Below, in pieces: positions 38,228 to 45,477 of a stretch of DNA of 64,000 nt (positions within the stretch are counted from its first letter, which is position 1; the number at the start of each line of letters is the position of its first letter). The stretch spans positions 1,612,910-1,676,909 of the forward strand of contig NZ_NJER01000001.1 in assembly GCF_002753895.1 (NCBI RefSeq), written 5' to 3'. The position numbers were made by a program, and so were the translations under genes. The notes under the pieces were generated by a model that saw nothing but the letters and a program-made list of their open reading frames with translations, was not told the origin of the DNA and did not search any database. This stretch comes from Halobacteriovorax sp. JY17. GTDB lineage: Bacteria > Bdellovibrionota > Bacteriovoracia > Bacteriovoracales > Bacteriovoracaceae.

Positions 38228-39730
38228 ATGAAAAAAATAGGTATAGTTGTTCTCTTTGTTGGAGTTTTGGCTTTGTCAGTATCCAATTTTTATTTAACAG
38301 TATCTAAGCTTATTTGGCTTATCTCCCTTCTTATTTCTAATATAATTATCTATTACTTATTTTTTAAAAAGTCGGTATCAATGGCTAGAATTGAAAGTGA
38401 GTTAAAGAGACTAGAGAAATCAAATAGAGTCATATTAGGTACATCTGATCAAATTCTAAATACAAATCGTGAACTAGAAGAAGGTTCATTGCAACAGTCT
38501 GAATCACTACATGAAACAGCAATAGCTCTCGATGAAATTAATGCCATGGCAGCAAGGAGTTCATCTCATTGCGAAACCTCGATAACTCTTTCATCAGAAT
38601 GTATTAATGCATCTGGGAAGGGAAAGGAAGCAGTTAATAATTTAAAAGATAGTTTTATAAAAATAAAAGATGGAAATATTTCTTTTTCAAAATATATTTC
38701 AGATTCAAATGAAAAGATTTTAGAAATTAGTAATGTAATAAAAGAGATTAATACAAGAACGAAAATTATTAATGATATTGTTTTTCAAACTAAGCTTCTT
38801 TCATTCAATGCTTCCGTGGAGGCGGCGAGAGCCGGAGAGCACGGGAAAGGTTTTTCAGTTGTAGCAGAAGAGATTGGTAACTTAGCAAACCTTAGTGGTA
38901 GCGCTGCAAATGAGATATCTAAAATGTTAGAAGAGAGTGTTCTACGAGTTGATGAAATTGTGGAAGAGAGTCAGATTGCAGTTGAAAAAATATCAGCAAC
39001 GAGTGAAGAAAGTATTGAGCTAGGAGAAGTTGCAGTTACTCTTTGTGATAACTCTTTAGATGATATATCGATGAGAATTGATGAGGTAAATAGATCTGTT
39101 CTAGAAATTTCATCTGCGAGTAAAGAGCAGAGGATTGGAGTAGAGGAGATAACAAAAGCCGTAAATTTATTAAATCAAGTTAATCAAAAGATTAACCTTG
39201 TTGTAGGGCAATCTAAACAAGTTGCTTATAGCGTATCAAAAGAATCAGAGGAGTTAGATGAAGTTGTTGCTAGAATGATTTTTGCAACAACTGGTCATGA
39301 AAGAATTAAATCTAATGATGCTGAGTTGTTCGAATGGGATGACTCCTATTTGATTCATGTCGACGACATGGATGATGAACATCAAATTCTAGTCGAAAAA
39401 ATAAATCTACTTGTTGAAAGTTTAAATAAAGAAACCTCTTTAGAAATGCTTCCAAAGTTTAATGATATGTGTGACTACACTGTTGAACATTTTACCCATG
39501 AAGAAGAGTTTATGCGAAGTTTCAATTATGAAGAATATGATGCTCATAAAAAAATCCATGATAACCTTCTTTCATTTCTTCGAAGCTTTGAAGAGAGTAT
39601 AAGAAATGGTACTGTTGATAAAATTAAATTAGTGGGCTTTCTTAAAAATTGGCTCATAAGTCATATTATGGGGGTGGATACTAAGTATGCCGGTGTTTAT
39701 CAAGAGAGCAGAGCTAAACTTACGGCTTAG
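38228..39730 (+). CDS. Chemoreceptor signalling domain fused to C-terminal hemerythrin
   Basis: 500 residues from ATG 38228 (AGGAG 5 bases upstream; the in-frame GTG at 38222 lies in that box). Two adjacent transmembrane helices occupy about residues 5-50 with almost no periplasmic loop. The cytoplasmic MCP coil carries the tip [20 protein letters not shown]. Residues about 370-495 are a bacteriohemerythrin with all seven di-iron ligands: DDEHQ, VEHFTHEEE, YDAHKKIHD and HIMGVDTKY. It probably senses oxygen or related gases in the cytoplasm and signals to CheA. It is solitary and convergent with the flavin reductase gene, overlapping it by 11 bases. Confidence 0.92.
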   Translation: MKKIGIVVLFVGVLALSVSNFYLTVSKLIWLISLLISNIIIYYLFFKKSVSMARIESELKRLEKSNRVILGTSDQILNTNRELEEGSLQQSESLHETAIALDEINAMAARSSSHCETSITLSSECINASGKGKEAVNNLKDSFIKIKDGNISFSKYISDSNEKILEISNVIKEINTRTKIINDIVFQTKLLSFNASVEAARAGEHGKGFSVVAEEIGNLANLSGSAANEISKMLEESVLRVDEIVEESQIAVEKISATSEESIELGEVAVTLCDNSLDDISMRIDEVNRSVLEISSASKEQRIGVEEITKAVNLLNQVNQKINLVVGQSKQVAYSVSKESEELDEVVARMIFATTGHERIKSNDAELFEWDDSYLIHVDDMDDEHQILVEKINLLVESLNKETSLEMLPKFNDMCDYTVEHFTHEEEFMRSFNYEEYDAHKKIHDNLLSFLRSFEESIRNGTVDKIKLVGFLKNWLISHIMGVDTKYAGVYQESRAKLTA

Positions 39731-40346
39731 CATAGGGGAGTCGTTCTAGTTTTTGAATTGAATGATAAGTATCTAGACCACTAACACAGACTGCTTGCGT
39801 ATCCTCTATGTTGAGATAGCCGTCATCATTCATTATTCTCTTTGGTATCCATACTCCAAGAATTTTTAAGATGAGCATATGGGTACCATTTTCTTTAATA
39901 GAAACTTCTCTTGAAAGCTCAAGTGCTACTTTTACATGTGATTCTTTTACAAAGGGAGCTTTGAAATTTTCCAGGTATTCTTCAGTGAGGGAGCAGGCTT
40001 CAAATTCAGAAACTTCTCTCTTATATCTGGCACTTGTTTGGTGAGCATTTCTATAAATATTTTCGTTTACATGATTCAGAGTAAGTACTTTGGTCGATCT
40101 GATATTTTCGAGCGTATGTCGTGGAGAAATATCAGGCCTAATGATAATTCCAAGTAATGCTGGCGAAGCTCCAAGGTGAAAGGCTGAGCTCACAATACTT
40201 AGGTTTGTTTGTCCACTTGAAGAAATTGTACCAATTAAATTAGCAGACTTTATTCCTGACAATGAGTTAATAAAACGTACTCGTTTTCTATCATCAAAAT
40301 TTTTAAACATAGTGTTAGATATGAATATTTGATTTTCATTTGTCAT
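39720..40346 (-). CDS. Flavin reductase-like FMN-binding protein
   Basis: 208 residues from the ATG at 40346, one base after the photolyase stop; a longer frame from 40406 runs inside the photolyase gene. The split-barrel flavin reductase pattern is seen: SANLIGTISSSGQTNLSIVSSAFHLGASPALLGIIIRP (core motif SSAFHLG), RHTLENI and VLTLNHVN. Such proteins bind FMN and reduce flavins or related substrates. As last gene of the photolyase operon, it may supply or handle reduced flavin for repair; that role is inferred. Confidence 0.85.
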   Translation of the reverse strand: MTNENQIFISNTMFKNFDDRKRVRFINSLSGIKSANLIGTISSSGQTNLSIVSSAFHLGASPALLGIIIRPDISPRHTLENIRSTKVLTLNHVNENIYRNAHQTSARYKREVSEFEACSLTEEYLENFKAPFVKESHVKVALELSREVSIKENGTHMLILKILGVWIPKRIMNDDGYLNIEDTQAVCVSGLDTYHSIQKLERLPYAKP

Positions 40347-40347
40347 A

Positions 40348-41646
40348 TTATTTAACTGCTTTGTTATAGGTGAATATTGCTCGGTGATAAGCTTCTTTGT
40401 GATCAATCATTTCCTTTGTATAGTTCTCTGTTCCATATTCTGGAACCCATTTCTTTACATAGACTAGGTCTGGATCAAATTTCTTTAATTGGGTCATAGG
40501 ATTAAAAATTCTAAAGTAAGGAGCAGCGTCACAGCCTGTTCCTGCAGCCCATTGCCAATTTCCATTATTAGAGGCGAGATCAAAGTCTAGGAGTTTTGAA
40601 GCAAAGTATTTTTCGCCCCATCTCCAATCAATAAGAAGATCTTTAACTAGAAAACTTGCTACAACCATTCTTACTCTGTTATGCATATGGCCTGTGTTAT
40701 TGAGTTCTCTCATTCCTGCATCGACCAATGGAAAGCCTGTTCTTCCTTCGCACCATAATTTAAACTCTTCTTTATTATTTCTCCACTTAATCGCATTATA
40801 CTTTTCTTTAAACGAAGATTCCGCCACATGAGGAAAGTGATAGAGAATTTGCATAAAGAATTCTCTCCAAATGAGTTCGCTCAGCCAGGTGGCATTGGTT
40901 TGATGAGCAATAGCTACGGCCTGCCTAGTACTTATTGTGCCAAAGCGTAAATGGATACCAATAAGAGATGTCCCTTCGAGAGAGGGGATATCTCTTGTTT
41001 TGTCATAGCACTCTATTTTTTTCTTTCTCAATATTCTTGTCGGGATTTTTACTTCCCCTCTTTTGAAACCTAGTTCTTCTAGGTCATGTAAGTATTTATT
41101 AAAATTATCTGAAATATTATCAATAAGCTTTTCAGACCTAAAACTTGCAAGATCTTTGGGGCTTAAGTTCTCAAGCCATTTATTCTTATAGGGCGTATAG
41201 ATAGTATAAGGAGTACCATCTTTCTTTAAAATATCATTCTTTGCAAAAATACATTGATCTTTATAGGAATTCATTTTTATAGATTTCTTTTGAAGAAGTT
41301 TTGAAATCTCTTGATCTCTTCTTAATGCGTAAGGCTCATAGTCTTCGTTGACAAATACCTCCTCTATATTGAATTCTTTCAGTATTTGAGACCAAGCTTT
41401 TTTAGGGGTGTCGAAGTATGTTTTAATGCTTTTGTTTGATGAAGATAGATCCTCATTTATTTTTATGAGAGAGTCATAAATAAAGCTAACTCTTGCATCA
41501 TTCTTATCTAGGCTATCTAGAATATTTTTATCAAATATAAAGATAGGTATAACTTTTAGTCCAGACGATAGGGCGTGGTAAAAGGCTTTATTGTCTTTGA
41601 TCCTTAAATCTCTTCTAAACCAGAATATATTAACTCTTTCTTTCAT
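40348..41646 (-). CDS. phrB: Deoxyribodipyrimidine photolyase (cryptochrome/photolyase family)
   Basis: 432 residues. It uses light-excited FADH- to split cyclobutane pyrimidine dimers. The N-terminal antenna-binding domain begins VNIFWFRRDLRIKDN. The FAD domain has LIWREFFMQIL, NRVRMVVASFLVKDLLIDWRWGE (core RMVVASF) and DFDLASNNGNWQWAAGTG (core NNGNWQW), with GCDAAPYFRIFNP near the end. Its start shares one base with the stop of the DUF523/DUF1722 gene. The divergent MerR-cobalamin regulator suggests light control. Confidence 0.95.
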   Translation of the reverse strand: MKERVNIFWFRRDLRIKDNKAFYHALSSGLKVIPIFIFDKNILDSLDKNDARVSFIYDSLIKINEDLSSSNKSIKTYFDTPKKAWSQILKEFNIEEVFVNEDYEPYALRRDQEISKLLQKKSIKMNSYKDQCIFAKNDILKKDGTPYTIYTPYKNKWLENLSPKDLASFRSEKLIDNISDNFNKYLHDLEELGFKRGEVKIPTRILRKKKIECYDKTRDIPSLEGTSLIGIHLRFGTISTRQAVAIAHQTNATWLSELIWREFFMQILYHFPHVAESSFKEKYNAIKWRNNKEEFKLWCEGRTGFPLVDAGMRELNNTGHMHNRVRMVVASFLVKDLLIDWRWGEKYFASKLLDFDLASNNGNWQWAAGTGCDAAPYFRIFNPMTQLKKFDPDLVYVKKWVPEYGTENYTKEMIDHKEAYHRAIFTYNKAVK

Positions 41647-42596
41647 TATACTTCTTTTGCTAATTTCAATTCTTTAGGATAAGGCATGAAGTAGTACTGT
41701 CCATTTAAGTATGACAGTTCATATTTCTTTGTAAGCAAATCAAAAAATTTCAAGAGAACTATATGATTTATAATTCCATTTTTGAAATCTTCTAAAAGTG
41801 AAACTATTTCACTTTTCTCTTTTGCTGTTAGGTATTTCTTGAAGTACCCCATGAGATGCTGAAGAGTATTGAATCTTCTTCCTGTCGTCGCTTCTTTATT
41901 AAAAGTTTTAAACAATAAAGTTCTGTACTCTTGAAAACTTTCTTCTATGTCGTTCTTCTTTGCATTTGCGACAATCTGTCCTAGTCTTTTTAGTTCTTTA
42001 GGAGAGTGATCCATGAGGATATACTTATACTTTTGATGGAATTGTTGAAATTCGGCAGGGGTTCTCTCTGTATTCCTCAGTCTATAGTGAGCATAGACCG
42101 ATTTTATAAAATTCTCCCTAAGAACTTTATTTATCATTCTTCCCGAATCAATAGTTGGGACGGATGGGAAATTACTTAAAACATTTTTTGCAAATAGTCC
42201 TGTGGATCTCGTCACGACTTTTGAATCATCAAGTTGAATAGTCTTAACGTTATCTAAACCGCATGAAGGGGATTTCTTTGTTAGAATAAAACCATCAATG
42301 CTTTTATTGCTTAATGTAGCATTCATTCTAGAGTATGTTTCTAGAGCAAGGCCTGTAAGGTCAGTGCCTTCAAATTTCTTTCTTAGTTTTATATTTTCTT
42401 TATCTTCTTTGTTAAAATAAAGATGAATCTCCTCTCTTGGAGCCCCAAGACCCATTTCCATTTCTGGACAAACGGGAACGAAATTAACAAACTTTGAAAG
42501 CTCCTGAATGATCCACTTGTCTTGGCAGTGATTTTTATCATACCTGACAAGATTTCCTAGTAAGCACGAGCTAATGGCAATATTAGGTTTAGTCAT
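41646..42596 (-). CDS. DUF523-DUF1722 fusion protein
   Basis: 316 residues from the ATG at 42596 (GGGAG about 8 bases upstream; the ATG at 42602 is also possible but very close to that box). Residues 1-150 are DUF523: ISSCLLGNLVRYD, VPVCPEMEMGLGAPRE and KSPSCGL, with conserved cysteines. The rest is DUF1722 (YbgA-like): LMGYFKK, KYKYILMDHSP. This fusion commonly sits beside photolyase genes, and a link to thiouracil desulfidation has been described for DUF523. It is part of the SDR-phrB operon. Confidence 0.88.
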   Translation of the reverse strand: MTKPNIAISSCLLGNLVRYDKNHCQDKWIIQELSKFVNFVPVCPEMEMGLGAPREEIHLYFNKEDKENIKLRKKFEGTDLTGLALETYSRMNATLSNKSIDGFILTKKSPSCGLDNVKTIQLDDSKVVTRSTGLFAKNVLSNFPSVPTIDSGRMINKVLRENFIKSVYAHYRLRNTERTPAEFQQFHQKYKYILMDHSPKELKRLGQIVANAKKNDIEESFQEYRTLLFKTFNKEATTGRRFNTLQHLMGYFKKYLTAKEKSEIVSLLEDFKNGIINHIVLLKFFDLLTKKYELSYLNGQYYFMPYPKELKLAKEV

Positions 42597-42610
42597 GTTC
42601 ATGGCTCCCG

Positions 42611-43987
42611 TTAATTAAACTTTCTATCAATGACTGCATTTCTATAGTTGAAAATACTTTTTACATCTCTTGAAATAAACCAGCCAGATACAAGGTTACC
42701 AAGAATTCCAAAGGGAACTTTGTATACGATTTTATCTGAAATTAACGTTCCATTCTTTAAAGATTGAAAGTCGTGTTGGTGAACCCACTTTGAGTAAGGA
42801 CCTTTGAGTTGTTCATCGATAAATGACTTGTTTTTTTCAAAGTTATTTATTTTTGTTTTCCATTTCGCAGGAATTCCATGAATTTTTAATTTATAGTCAA
42901 TGAGAGAACCTGTTTTTATTTGATCGGTATTCATTCCTACAATTTTAAAACTTAGGTTTTTAGGAGTAATGGTTTCTAGGTTCTTAACATCCGAAAAAAA
43001 TTGAAATACATCTTCTAGTGGAGACTTTACCCATTGATGTCGCTTAAATAAAACTTCACCCTTAACATTGTATTTTAGTATATTGCTGAGAGCTGAATAG
43101 AGGTTCTTATACTTAAACTCAAATCCTTCGGCGTCTAGATGTGTTGGAGAAACTCTTTGTCCTTCTAGGAGAATTTCAGACATTTCTCCAAAGATTAATT
43201 TTAAGACAACTCCTGGTACGGGAAAGATTGTAGGACGCTTAAGAACATTTCCCAGTACTTTTGTAAATTCAAGATTTGTAACTGGAGTAGGCGAGACACC
43301 ATTATAAGAAAACTTCTTACAGTCATTGGTCATAAGAAATAGGAAAGCATTTACAAGATCATCTATATGAATCCAACTCATATACTGCTTACCTGACCCA
43401 AGCTTTCCTCCAAGACCAAGAGTAAATGGAGGAAGCATTTTTGCTAAAGCGCCACCTTCCTCACTAAGTACAACACCTGTTCTAAGTGTATGAGCATTCA
43501 TTCCTTTGATGTCGTGGTCTCTTAGGGAATTTTCCCATGCTTTGCAAATCTCGGCGAGGAAGCCTTCTCCAAGAGAGTCTTCTGATGTAATAGTTTTGTC
43601 TGAAAGGCTGCTTCCGTAGATACCAACTGCAGATGAAGAAATGAACTTCTTTGGAGTAGTTGAAGACTTTTTAATCTCTCTTAATAAAATACTTGTTCCC
43701 TTAACTCTGGAATCTAAAATACTCTTCTTTCTTTTTTCACTCCATCTTCCTTCAGCAACACCTTCTCCTGCGAGATGAAAGACAATACTTACATTCTCTA
43801 GAGCTCCTTTTTCTATTGTGCCAGCAATCGGATTCCATTCACAAATTTCAATAGGAAAACTGATTTTAGATTTAGCTTTCTCTTTATTTGTAGTTAGGAC
43901 TCTAATATCTTCGTATCCTTTAAGAATGAGAGTTTCTAAAAGTCTTGTGCCAATTAGGCCTGTGGCTCCAGTAATTAGTATTTTCAC
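42611..43987 (-). CDS. TIGR01777-type epimerase fused to a SRPBCC domain
   Basis: 458 residues from a GTG at 43987 (CGGAG 8 bases upstream), giving the clean start MKILITGATGLIG; a longer frame to 44038 crosses the promoter. Residues 1 to about 300 are an extended SDR (atypical SDR39 type) with Rossmann motif GATGLIG, FHLAGEGV, SSAVGIYG and TLRTGVVLSEEGGA. Residues about 310-458 are a SRPBCC ligand-binding fold (VLFKRHQWVKSPLEDVFQFF). The substrate is unknown. It is the first gene of the divergent light/photolyase operon. Confidence 0.87.
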   Translation of the reverse strand: MKILITGATGLIGTRLLETLILKGYEDIRVLTTNKEKAKSKISFPIEICEWNPIAGTIEKGALENVSIVFHLAGEGVAEGRWSEKRKKSILDSRVKGTSILLREIKKSSTTPKKFISSSAVGIYGSSLSDKTITSEDSLGEGFLAEICKAWENSLRDHDIKGMNAHTLRTGVVLSEEGGALAKMLPPFTLGLGGKLGSGKQYMSWIHIDDLVNAFLFLMTNDCKKFSYNGVSPTPVTNLEFTKVLGNVLKRPTIFPVPGVVLKLIFGEMSEILLEGQRVSPTHLDAEGFEFKYKNLYSALSNILKYNVKGEVLFKRHQWVKSPLEDVFQFFSDVKNLETITPKNLSFKIVGMNTDQIKTGSLIDYKLKIHGIPAKWKTKINNFEKNKSFIDEQLKGPYSKWVHQHDFQSLKNGTLISDKIVYKVPFGILGNLVSGWFISRDVKSIFNYRNAVIDRKFN

Positions 43988-44003
43988 CTTTCTGTCTCCG
44001 CTG

Positions 44004-44050
44004 TTGATTAATCCTTGATTACGTATTAGACTATACACTAGTTAATCAAG
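44004..44050. promoter_or_regulatory. Operator of three 11-bp direct repeats over divergent promoters
   Basis: TTGATTAATCC (44004-44014), TTGATTACGTA (44015-44025) and TTAGACTATAC (44026-44036) are consecutive 11-base units, the third weaker. TAATCAA recurs inverted at 44043-44049. For the MerR gene, TTGATT (44004-44009)-N17-TAGACT (44027-44032) is a plausible promoter. For the opposite operon, TTGATT (44049-44044)-N15-TAATAC (44028-44023) is plausible. Three 11-bp direct repeats are the layout bound by the tetrameric CarH regulator, which fits the encoded protein. Confidence 0.65.
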
Positions 44051-44074
44051 ATTTTGTTGAAATTAGAGTCTATT

Positions 44075-44983
44075 ATGAAAAATATTGTCGGAATTAAAGT
44101 ATTGTCAAAGGCTTGCGGTGTCCTTCCTCATTCGATTAGAACATGGGAGACGAGATATCAGGCGTTTAGCCCTGTTCGAAGTGAGGGAGGGCAAAGGCTT
44201 TATAGTGAGGAGGACCTTGAAAGAGCGAAACTTATAGGATTCCTCTTAGATCGGGAGCACTCCATCTCAGTTCTTGCAAAGCTATCTCTTTCGAGTTTGC
44301 AGACTCTTAAGAAAAACTCTGAAGACTTAGGCACTAATTCTGTAGGACTTACAGGTGTTAGTATTTCAAAATTATTCAAGCACTTAACAAATTACGATAT
44401 TGATAGTGTCGCTTCAGAGCTTCAACATTTGAGAATGAGTGTTGGCTCAAAAGATTTTATCTTTAAGGTAATCTTGCCGTTGATGCAAGAAATTGGATTG
44501 AAAGTTTCTAAGGGAGTTTATTCCGTGACTCAGGAGCATATTGTTTCAACAATTGTGAGAGGGCAGCTTGGTCAAATCAACCTTCCAAATATTGGCTATA
44601 CTGATCAGAGAATAGCTCTCGCAACTCCTGATGGCAATTTGCACGAGCTTTCAATTTTAATTGCAGATATTCTTTGTAGATCAAATAGAGTTACGACCTG
44701 TTATCTAGGAGCATCCCACCCCGCAGAATGCTTAGCAGAAGCAGTTAATGCTCTTAAGGTAAAAACGGTTGTTATGGGGGTCGTATCTTCTGACCAGTGG
44801 AATTACGAAAAGAATATGATCCCCTACTTAAAGAGTTTAGATAAATTCCTTATTGGAGAAACCACTGTGATTCTTGGTGGGGGATGGAGTTTAGAGTTTC
44901 CAGACTTTGAGAATATTAAAGAAATTAAAATCATGGATAGTTTTGAAAAATTTGATGAATTAATAGAGAGATCATTTTTCTAA
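44075..44983 (+). CDS. MerR-family regulator with cobalamin-binding domain (CarH/LitR-like)
   Basis: 302 residues from ATG 44075; a TTG at 44054 is also in frame. Residues 1-70 are the MerR winged helix (LPHSIRTWETRYQAFSPVRS, RLYSEEDLERAKLI). Residues about 95-170 form the helical bundle with Glu154-His155 (TQEHIVST). The Rossmann B12 domain has the lower-ligand His190 in DGNLHEL and a late GGGWSLEF. The Trp of the CarH Wx9EH motif is Val144 here. CarH and LitR bind AdoCbl in the dark to repress, and light releases them. Divergent from a photolyase operon with shared operator repeats. Confidence 0.87.
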   Translation: MKNIVGIKVLSKACGVLPHSIRTWETRYQAFSPVRSEGGQRLYSEEDLERAKLIGFLLDREHSISVLAKLSLSSLQTLKKNSEDLGTNSVGLTGVSISKLFKHLTNYDIDSVASELQHLRMSVGSKDFIFKVILPLMQEIGLKVSKGVYSVTQEHIVSTIVRGQLGQINLPNIGYTDQRIALATPDGNLHELSILIADILCRSNRVTTCYLGASHPAECLAEAVNALKVKTVVMGVVSSDQWNYEKNMIPYLKSLDKFLIGETTVILGGGWSLEFPDFENIKEIKIMDSFEKFDELIERSFF

Positions 44984-45033: not shown

Positions 45034-45477
45034 TTACTCTTTAGGAATTAAAATTGCGGAGTTCTTTTCATTTTCTCTAACTTCAAGTCTTGAAATCCAC
45101 GCTCTATTATTAGTAAGTTTTTTGATCATTGGATTCACCTGATCATAGACATACTGAGCAGTACCTTCCATTCCTGCATTTGGAAGAACTCTGAGTTGTA
45201 TAACTCCATCAATATCCAGTTGTTTAAAAGTATCTAGGAATGGATCATCAGAAGATGCTAAGAAAGTATGATCGAACATATCGTCGAGCCAAACCTTTAC
45301 TTCTTTTAATCCTCCAAAGTCTACAACCCATCCTTCTTTTGTAAGTTCCGTTGATTTAAATTCAAAGTAGAACGATCTTGAGTAACCATGAACATACTTA
45401 CAATGAGAATCGGCCTTCCATTGTCTATGAGTACATGGAAATCCTATGAAGTGTTTTGTTGAGATAAATTCTGTCAT
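45034..45477 (-). CDS. 6-pyruvoyltetrahydropterin synthase/QueD family protein
   Basis: 147 residues. The PTPS T-fold is recognised from FISTKHFIGFPCTHRQW, SHCKYVHGYSRSF, WVVDFGGLKEVKVWLDDMFDHTFL and VLPNAGMEGTAQYVYD. QueD converts dihydroneopterin triphosphate to carboxytetrahydropterin for queuosine; other members make pterins. The usual HGH zinc pair reads HGY, so one metal ligand is altered, although Cys and other His residues remain. AGGAAT precedes the ATG. It is the last gene of the yidD-dacB-queD run. Exact activity is uncertain. Confidence 0.8.
   Translation of the reverse strand: MTEFISTKHFIGFPCTHRQWKADSHCKYVHGYSRSFYFEFKSTELTKEGWVVDFGGLKEVKVWLDDMFDHTFLASSDDPFLDTFKQLDIDGVIQLRVLPNAGMEGTAQYVYDQVNPMIKKLTNNRAWISRLEVRENEKNSAILIPKE

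Follow-up and report, generated by a model that had tools for sequence, protein, structure and literature searches.

A candidate mirror-image operator between a CarH/CarA/LitR-like regulator and a photolyase operon in Halobacteriovorax sp. JY17

The closest described relatives of the regulator considered here are the CarH, CarA and LitR proteins. CarH of Thermus thermophilus and Bacillus megaterium (class I LitR) joins a MerR domain to a four-helix bundle and a Rossmann module, and its operator consists of three or four tandem repeats (nnnnTnnACAn) with an 11-bp period and a TnnACA core; the tandem-repeat operator is regarded as characteristic of CarH, which underlies green-light optogenetic tools. 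In Cystobacter, CarH needs two tandem repeats and binds as two dimers (PMC9304148). CarH has been defined by an intact Wx9EH together with the B12 motif, and CarA of Myxococcus xanthus keeps the EH, lacks the Trp, and binds B12 without requiring it (PMC9304148, PMC8156234). CarA acts on carotenogenesis, retains the classic B12 motif and occupies a large operator (~55 bp) as two dimers (PMC8156234, PMC9304148). Its site was later read as direct repeats, and its antirepressor, CarS, is known only from related myxobacteria. The MerR-like protein VCA0056 of Vibrio cholerae is a class IV LitR. Like the regulator described here it is associated with a photolyase: its gene is predicted to share an operon with one for a CPD photolyase, and part of the blue-light response needs it (PMC5241685). 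Class IV LitRs lack a B12-binding domain (PMC9758184), unlike our regulator. Class II LitR proteins (PmlR/PplR of Pseudomonas) recognize T(G/A)TACA-N12-TGTA(C/T)A and act with a short LOV protein, which in one case inhibits the LitR (PMC9758184), and their light-inducible neighbors include phrB and, according to PMC11417400, RudS. The literature searched, which covered few subscription papers, gave no account of an opposed 2+2 operator for the CarH/LitR superfamily and none of this regulator in Bacteriovoracales.

The window (the whole stretch of Halobacteriovorax sp. JY17 DNA that was analysed, 64,000 nucleotides) holds a regulator gene of this superfamily and, divergent from it, an operon of SDR, RudS, photolyase and flavin reductase genes, in that order, which are tightly packed or overlapping:

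44075..44983, + strand: CarH/CarA/LitR-like MerR regulator P0001, 302 aa (Pfam, NCBIfam, structure relatives, fold)
42611..43987, − strand: TIGR01777 SDR fused to a polyketide-cyclase-like domain, GTG start, first gene of the divergent operon (profile matches)
41646..42602, − strand: DUF523 (TudS) + DUF1722, the RudS architecture, tRNA 4-thiouridine desulfidase family (profile matches; PMC11417400)
40348..41646, − strand: class I DNA photolyase (profile matches)
39720..40406, − strand: flavin reductase-like protein (ORF listing, profile match)

The arrangement resembles that in Thermus, where a phytoene-synthase-family gene and phr lie divergently from carH, and the operon shares RudS and a photolyase with the class II LitR neighborhoods. 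A single predicted switch would here control photolyase, tRNA 4-thiouridine removal and flavin reductase together, in bacteria related to predatory ones. Just behind the regulator lies a 6-pyruvoyl-tetrahydropterin synthase family gene (45034-45477, − strand); to connect it with the antenna pterin of the photolyase would be speculative.

A 46-bp dyad in the intergenic region

The two transcription units are separated by 87 bp (43988-44074), with the SDR GTG start (43987) on one side and the regulator ATG (44075) on the other. The initial annotation had seen here three consecutive 11-bp direct repeats (44004-44014, 44015-44025 and 44026-44036), a layout that it took to agree with CarH, and plausible promoters on both strands. 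The first two repeats stand: both begin with TTGATTA, identical and 11 bp apart, a pair that scores 12/12 (p=0.002, 400 dinucleotide shuffles). The third 11-mer, TTAGACTATAC, is no repeat, agreeing with the second at 2/11 positions. After the TTGATTA pair comes its inverted counterpart, TATACAC at 44032-44038 and TAATCAA at 44043-44049, again spaced by 11 bp, and the element is in fact a dyad of 46 bp centered at 44026.5 with four TTGWHTA half-sites, two on the + strand 11 bp apart and two on the − strand 11 bp apart, all symmetric about the center (score 23/24, p=0.002, 400 dinucleotide shuffles). A repeat search returned exact 8-bp inverted arms at 44004-44011/44042-44049 and 44014-44021/44043-44050. 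The parts of the element are as follows:

44004..44049, no strand assigned: candidate dyad operator, four 7-bp half-sites (repeat search, shuffle tests, alignment, lag test)
44004..44010, + strand: outer left half-site, TTGATTA, whose first 6 bp (44004-44009) are the proposed −35 of the regulator (sequence, alignment)
44015..44021, + strand: left inner half-site, also TTGATTA, at an 11-bp distance from the outer left (sequence, shuffle test)
44025..44030, − strand: TCTAAT, a candidate −10 for the divergent operon, mid-dyad, with a weak −35 (inference from sequence and alignment reading)
44027..44032, + strand: TAGACT, putative regulator −10 at a 17-bp spacing from the −35 (all 13 aligned operators have TAnnnT at this distance)
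44032..44038, − strand: inner right half-site, GTGTATA on the − strand; its + strand core TATACA fits CarH TnnACA (shuffle test, core scoring)
44043..44049, − strand: outer right half-site, TTGATTA on the − strand (inverted arms, shuffle test)

The putative regulator promoter, TTGATT-N17-TAGACT, is sigma-70-like and lies wholly inside the operator. In each of the 13 aligned operators its −35 (TTGNNN) coincides with the outer left half-site and TAnnnT follows at 17 bp; this −10 is TAGACT in the window, while relatives have forms such as TATACT and TATAAT. The putative − strand promoter is weaker, a candidate −10 with a poor −35; by eye in the alignment this −10 reads TATAAT in two relatives (L045, L048). 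The predicted transcription starts fall near 44039 on the + strand and near 44018 on the − strand. A simple promoter scan of the window reported neither.

The perfect 8-bp inverted arms might suggest that the element acts as an RNA structure or terminator, but this is highly improbable: the fold is unremarkable (z=−0.70, with 45/200 shuffles folding as well), there was no Rfam family match and no terminator, and the inverted repeat overlaps the promoter instead of lying downstream of it. An FNR box has the consensus TTGAT-N4-ATCAA, and this candidate was likewise rejected, that spacing being absent from the element and many orthologous half-sites reading TTGTTTA.

Conservation, geometry and uniqueness of the element

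Homologs of the regulator are present in 116/129 same-family genomes, and 15 loci (the window and 14 others with 38-69% identity to the window regulator) were taken as orthologous and compared with their neighborhoods. When the opposed geometry (half-site TTGWWTA at +0, +11, −28 and −39) was scored against 400 dinucleotide shuffles, for which the lowest attainable p is 0.002, that floor was reached at 12/15 loci; L055 was marginal (p=0.047), and at the remaining two, L052 (p=0.995) and L057 (p=0.776), the dyad was not found. Five further relatives gave p values of 0.0025, 0.0025, 0.010, 0.060 and 0.51. Since the TTGWWTA consensus and the consensus of the genome scan below were chosen after inspecting these sequences, a consensus-free lag test serves as the check. 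The best 7-bp self-match at each lag from 8 to 45 in both orientations (76 lags) was averaged over 19 orthologous upstream regions, which share descent and are not independent, and compared with 200 shuffles; L094, a near-duplicate of L091, was left out, and the misses L052, L057 and L092 were kept. The three highest lags were direct 11 (z=7.3), inverted 28 (z=6.3) and inverted 39 (z=4.0), against a 95th percentile of 3.1 for the largest null z. Inverted lag 17, which the four-half-site model also predicts, was weaker (z 2.3, rank 13). Inverted lag 35 likewise rose above the null (z 3.8), and the four-half-site model does not account for it.

These results bear directly on canonical CarH action, in which a tetramer with AdoCbl sits on three tandem 11-bp repeats and is released by photolysis. 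Direct lag 22, the mark of three tandem repeats, had a z of −0.9 and ranked 70/76 in the 19 regions, and when three tandem TnnACA cores were scored, the known Thermus carH operator, our positive control, reached 12/12 but the window 8/12; for the opposed layout the window scores 13/16. The supposed agreement of the layout with CarH is not supported, the window having two opposed pairs where CarH has three or four repeats in tandem. What is shared with CarH is the 11-bp period, here within each half alone, and the TnnACA core: among 13 aligned operators, TGTnnA (the reverse of that core) occurs in 30/52 half-sites and TGWnnA in 46/52. In this alignment, whose members were picked for having the element so that its entropies are descriptive and not a test, half-site columns average 1.20 bits of relative entropy and other operator columns 0.58, with 0.23 bits in the upstream flank and 0.34 in the downstream. 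The two repeats of the Cystobacter operator lie in line whereas our pairs are opposed; four half-sites are compatible with the two dimers that bind the large CarA operator; and the class II LitR site is not found here, the intergenic region having one exact TnnACA (at 44032) and no TGTACA.

In a scan of the 129 same-family genomes with up to 3 mismatches, the full operator was present in 12 genomes, in 10 of them at the promoter of the orthologue (11 sites, two of them in G076); 4 further sites lay elsewhere, and the reversed pattern used as control gave 3. When the same repeats were sought elsewhere in the 3.47-Mb Halobacteriovorax sp. JY17 genome none came to light, the exact TTGATTA pair at 11 bp and the full operator each occurring once, so the predicted target is local, namely the regulator and the divergent operon. 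A wider regulon was considered and rejected, because the two-repeat pattern (1 mismatch) gave 51 + 60 matches against 66 + 57 for the reversed control, as expected by chance.

Upstream of paralogous regulators the picture was mixed: the opposed geometry gave p=0.002 at L036 and p=0.015-0.042 at L032, L035, L038 and L039, and was not significant at L037, L058, L062 and L064. At L032, L038 and L039, upstream of a paralogous regulator (G000:C1:252334), a conserved TTGAWTA-like half-site is followed by TAGACAA and TATACAT 11 bp apart, a layout of two TnnACA cores and one opposed half-site unlike that of the window.

The divergent SDR adjoins the regulator in 8 other orthologous loci (L034, L045, L046, L048, L050, L054, L056 and L057), several of which add a lipocalin. 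Other orthologues have as neighbors a desaturase, DUF1295, a CMAS-type methyltransferase, an amine-oxidase-like FAD protein and DUF1365, a neighborhood that we take to resemble a furan-fatty-acid/photo-oxidative cluster; the FAD oxidoreductase of the Cfa/DUF1365 cluster had no match in the Halobacteriovorax sp. JY17 genome. Two orthologues (L091, L092) lie on contigs labelled as Actinomycetota and Chloroflexi MAGs, which are probably mis-binned, and two others (L094, L099) are labelled SAR324.

A CarH-like fold with an altered cobalamin pocket

The fold of the regulator is that of CarH. Its AlphaFold2 model (pLDDT 84.5, pTM 0.66) matches full-length CarH (Foldseek E 2.8e-13), the closest solved structures are Thermus CarH chains, and the effector domain (residues 91-302) superimposes best on the CarH cobalamin domain (Z 18.8, rmsd 3.0, 190 residues; for chain 5c8d_F, Z 18.7 and rmsd 3.2 over 188 residues), with photocobilins (Z 18.7) near it in rank. 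Pfam recognizes MerR_1 and B12-binding_2 (PF02607) without B12-binding (PF02310); the latter was matched at E<=0.01 by 5/15 orthologues, and the window regulator's model has the Rossmann module. The NCBIfam CarH equivalog NF052513 gave 80.1 bits against a cut-off of 400.

In the pocket, CarH Trp131 is replaced by Val (V144) and His132, the bis-His residue, by Ser, while the equivalents of Glu141-His142 and of the lower-ligand His177 (here His190) are retained. The B12 motif reads NLHELS (NxHxxS) for ExHxxG, GVV (GxV) for SxV, and GGG; the His and GG are kept, but N stands for D/E and S for G, and the classic D/ExHx2G/P...SxT/V...GG pattern, which CarA retains, is not found. Among same-family homologs (47 non-CarH rows minus 6 short mis-framed and 2 duplicates, leaving 39 usable), the Trp of Wx9EH occurs in 0/39, His132 in 2, the EH in 34 and the lower-ligand His in 30. 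Three proteobacterial plasmid homologs, from Comamonas, Caballeronia and Allorhizobium, keep the Trp, so its loss appears to mark this lineage. A published light signature comprises GxxW, EH, GxxH and GxxxP (PMC11796333), of which the window regulator has the last three.

By the published definitions (PMC9304148, PMC8156234), the regulator is, judged from its sequence, CarA-like rather than CarH, having kept the EH and lost the Trp. The initial annotation finds support in placing between the regulator and the photolyase operon a predicted operator that has an 11-bp period and belongs to a member of the CarH superfamily, and the autoregulation that it proposed is implied by position and conservation. 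Its statement that the encoded regulator agrees with CarH is not supported, given the missing Trp, so dependence on B12 or light is not deducible from homology.

The pocket is nevertheless constrained despite the lost Trp. Q153-E154-H155, G187-N188, H190-E191-L192, G212 and P216 are invariant in the 15 orthologues, the EH, Asn and His thus being found in 15/15. This would suit a pocket that binds another tetrapyrrole (a non-adenosyl cobalamin, heme or protoporphyrin) and so provides a direct light, oxygen or redox input, and the same fold occurs in AerR (7te2, Z 14.4) and the heme-binding SCHIC domain of AppA (4heh, Z 17.4). Fold likeness alone shows no ligand, however, and we regard this reading as possible but doubtful. 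A conserved mirror-image operator on a CarH fold that has lost the adenosyl-capping Trp, with the rest of the pocket under constraint, offers a natural test of the pocket without AdoCbl photochemistry.

Candidate light inputs and a proposed mechanism

AdoCbl is probably made by this organism, because its genome encodes an ATP:cobalamin adenosyltransferase and four B12-binding proteins that exceed the family cut-off. Together with the fold, the full-length structural match and the retained His190, EH, GxxH and GxxxP, this would be congenial to canonical CarH action, or to a B12-dependent mode of some kind; yet the Trp and its adjacent His are absent, the motif is changed and the third repeat is spurious. 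Canonical AdoCbl photolysis is disfavored as the light input, and we consider the CarH mechanism as a whole distinctly unlikely.

NCRFLQ is the LOV motif, and the sole match to it at the DNA level in the Halobacteriovorax sp. JY17 genome is out of frame within a transporter gene, so that this candidate was rejected. A LOV-like gene does occur beside an orthologue: in G076 (L034), directly downstream of the regulator, a PAS/LOV-like protein, P0003 (3534-4145, − strand), has NLAFLQ for NCRFLQ. Relatives of P0003 were found at E<=1e-6 in 36/129 genomes, and at that threshold, which a remote LOV protein could escape, there were none in Halobacteriovorax sp. JY17 or four genus mates. We examined 20 LOV loci, from 20 of the 36 genomes. 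Eight (L105-L112) have a canonical NCRFLQ and a paralogue of the regulator on the same stretch, which points to a LitR-LOV pairing in this family like the one described in Pseudomonas; in L109-L111 the gene order is regulator, divergent SDR, LOV. Five others (L113, L114, L116, L123, L124) are Cys-less (NL[AS][FY]LQ), and a LOV protein without the Cys can still signal (PMC4682037).

Could the window regulator then work like a class II LitR, with a separate flavin photoreceptor, a short LOV, docking on its DNA-binding domain in the light? In Pfam its layout is the one given for PmlR1/PmlR2 (PMC9758184), though 5/15 orthologues also match PF02310 and its own model has the Rossmann module; short LOV genes stand beside paralogous regulators in the eight loci above, and the Cys-less gene of G076 directly follows an orthologue. 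Against this, Halobacteriovorax sp. JY17 and its four genus mates yielded no P0003 relative at E<=1e-6, and the JY17 genome no in-frame NCRFLQ; we think such an input unlikely. Since the family has LOV-wired relatives that are absent from this genus, the window regulator must, as far as these genome searches indicate, use another input or its own pocket.

The reading that we favor, and hold to be rather probable, is that the regulator acts locally, repressing its own gene and the light-damage operon as a pair of dimers in opposed orientation, and is released by light or photo-oxidative conditions. One dimer would occupy each 11-bp-spaced TTGWHTA pair, and the two would face each other about the center at 44026.5. 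They would cover both promoter elements (−35 and −10) of the regulator gene together with the divergent promoter that overlaps them and serves the SDR-RudS-photolyase-flavin reductase operon. We infer that in unstressed or dark cells the regulator represses in both directions, and that a light or photo-oxidative signal, suggested by the gene content, would free the operator; light induction of the operon is plausible on the same grounds. With no Trp in its Wx9EH motif, the regulator would be expected to behave like myxobacterial CarA or class II LitR, as a repressor that AdoCbl photolysis does not release.

A broader and more tentative proposal, which we would not expect to hold in full, is that a separate branch of CarH/LitR proteins with a symmetric 2+2 operator exists in Bacteriovoracales and in some genomes labelled SAR324, and that in this branch the cobalamin pocket (NxHxxS, no Trp) may have been rebuilt as another kind of direct light or photo-oxidative sensor while sister paralogues were wired to short LOV proteins. 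If that were true, a single regulator scaffold would serve two light inputs.

No BLUF protein was found in the Halobacteriovorax sp. JY17 genome. The Comamonas endophytica plasmid (L132) carries a BLUF-domain gene ~3 kb away from the gene of a CarH-like regulator that has the Trp.
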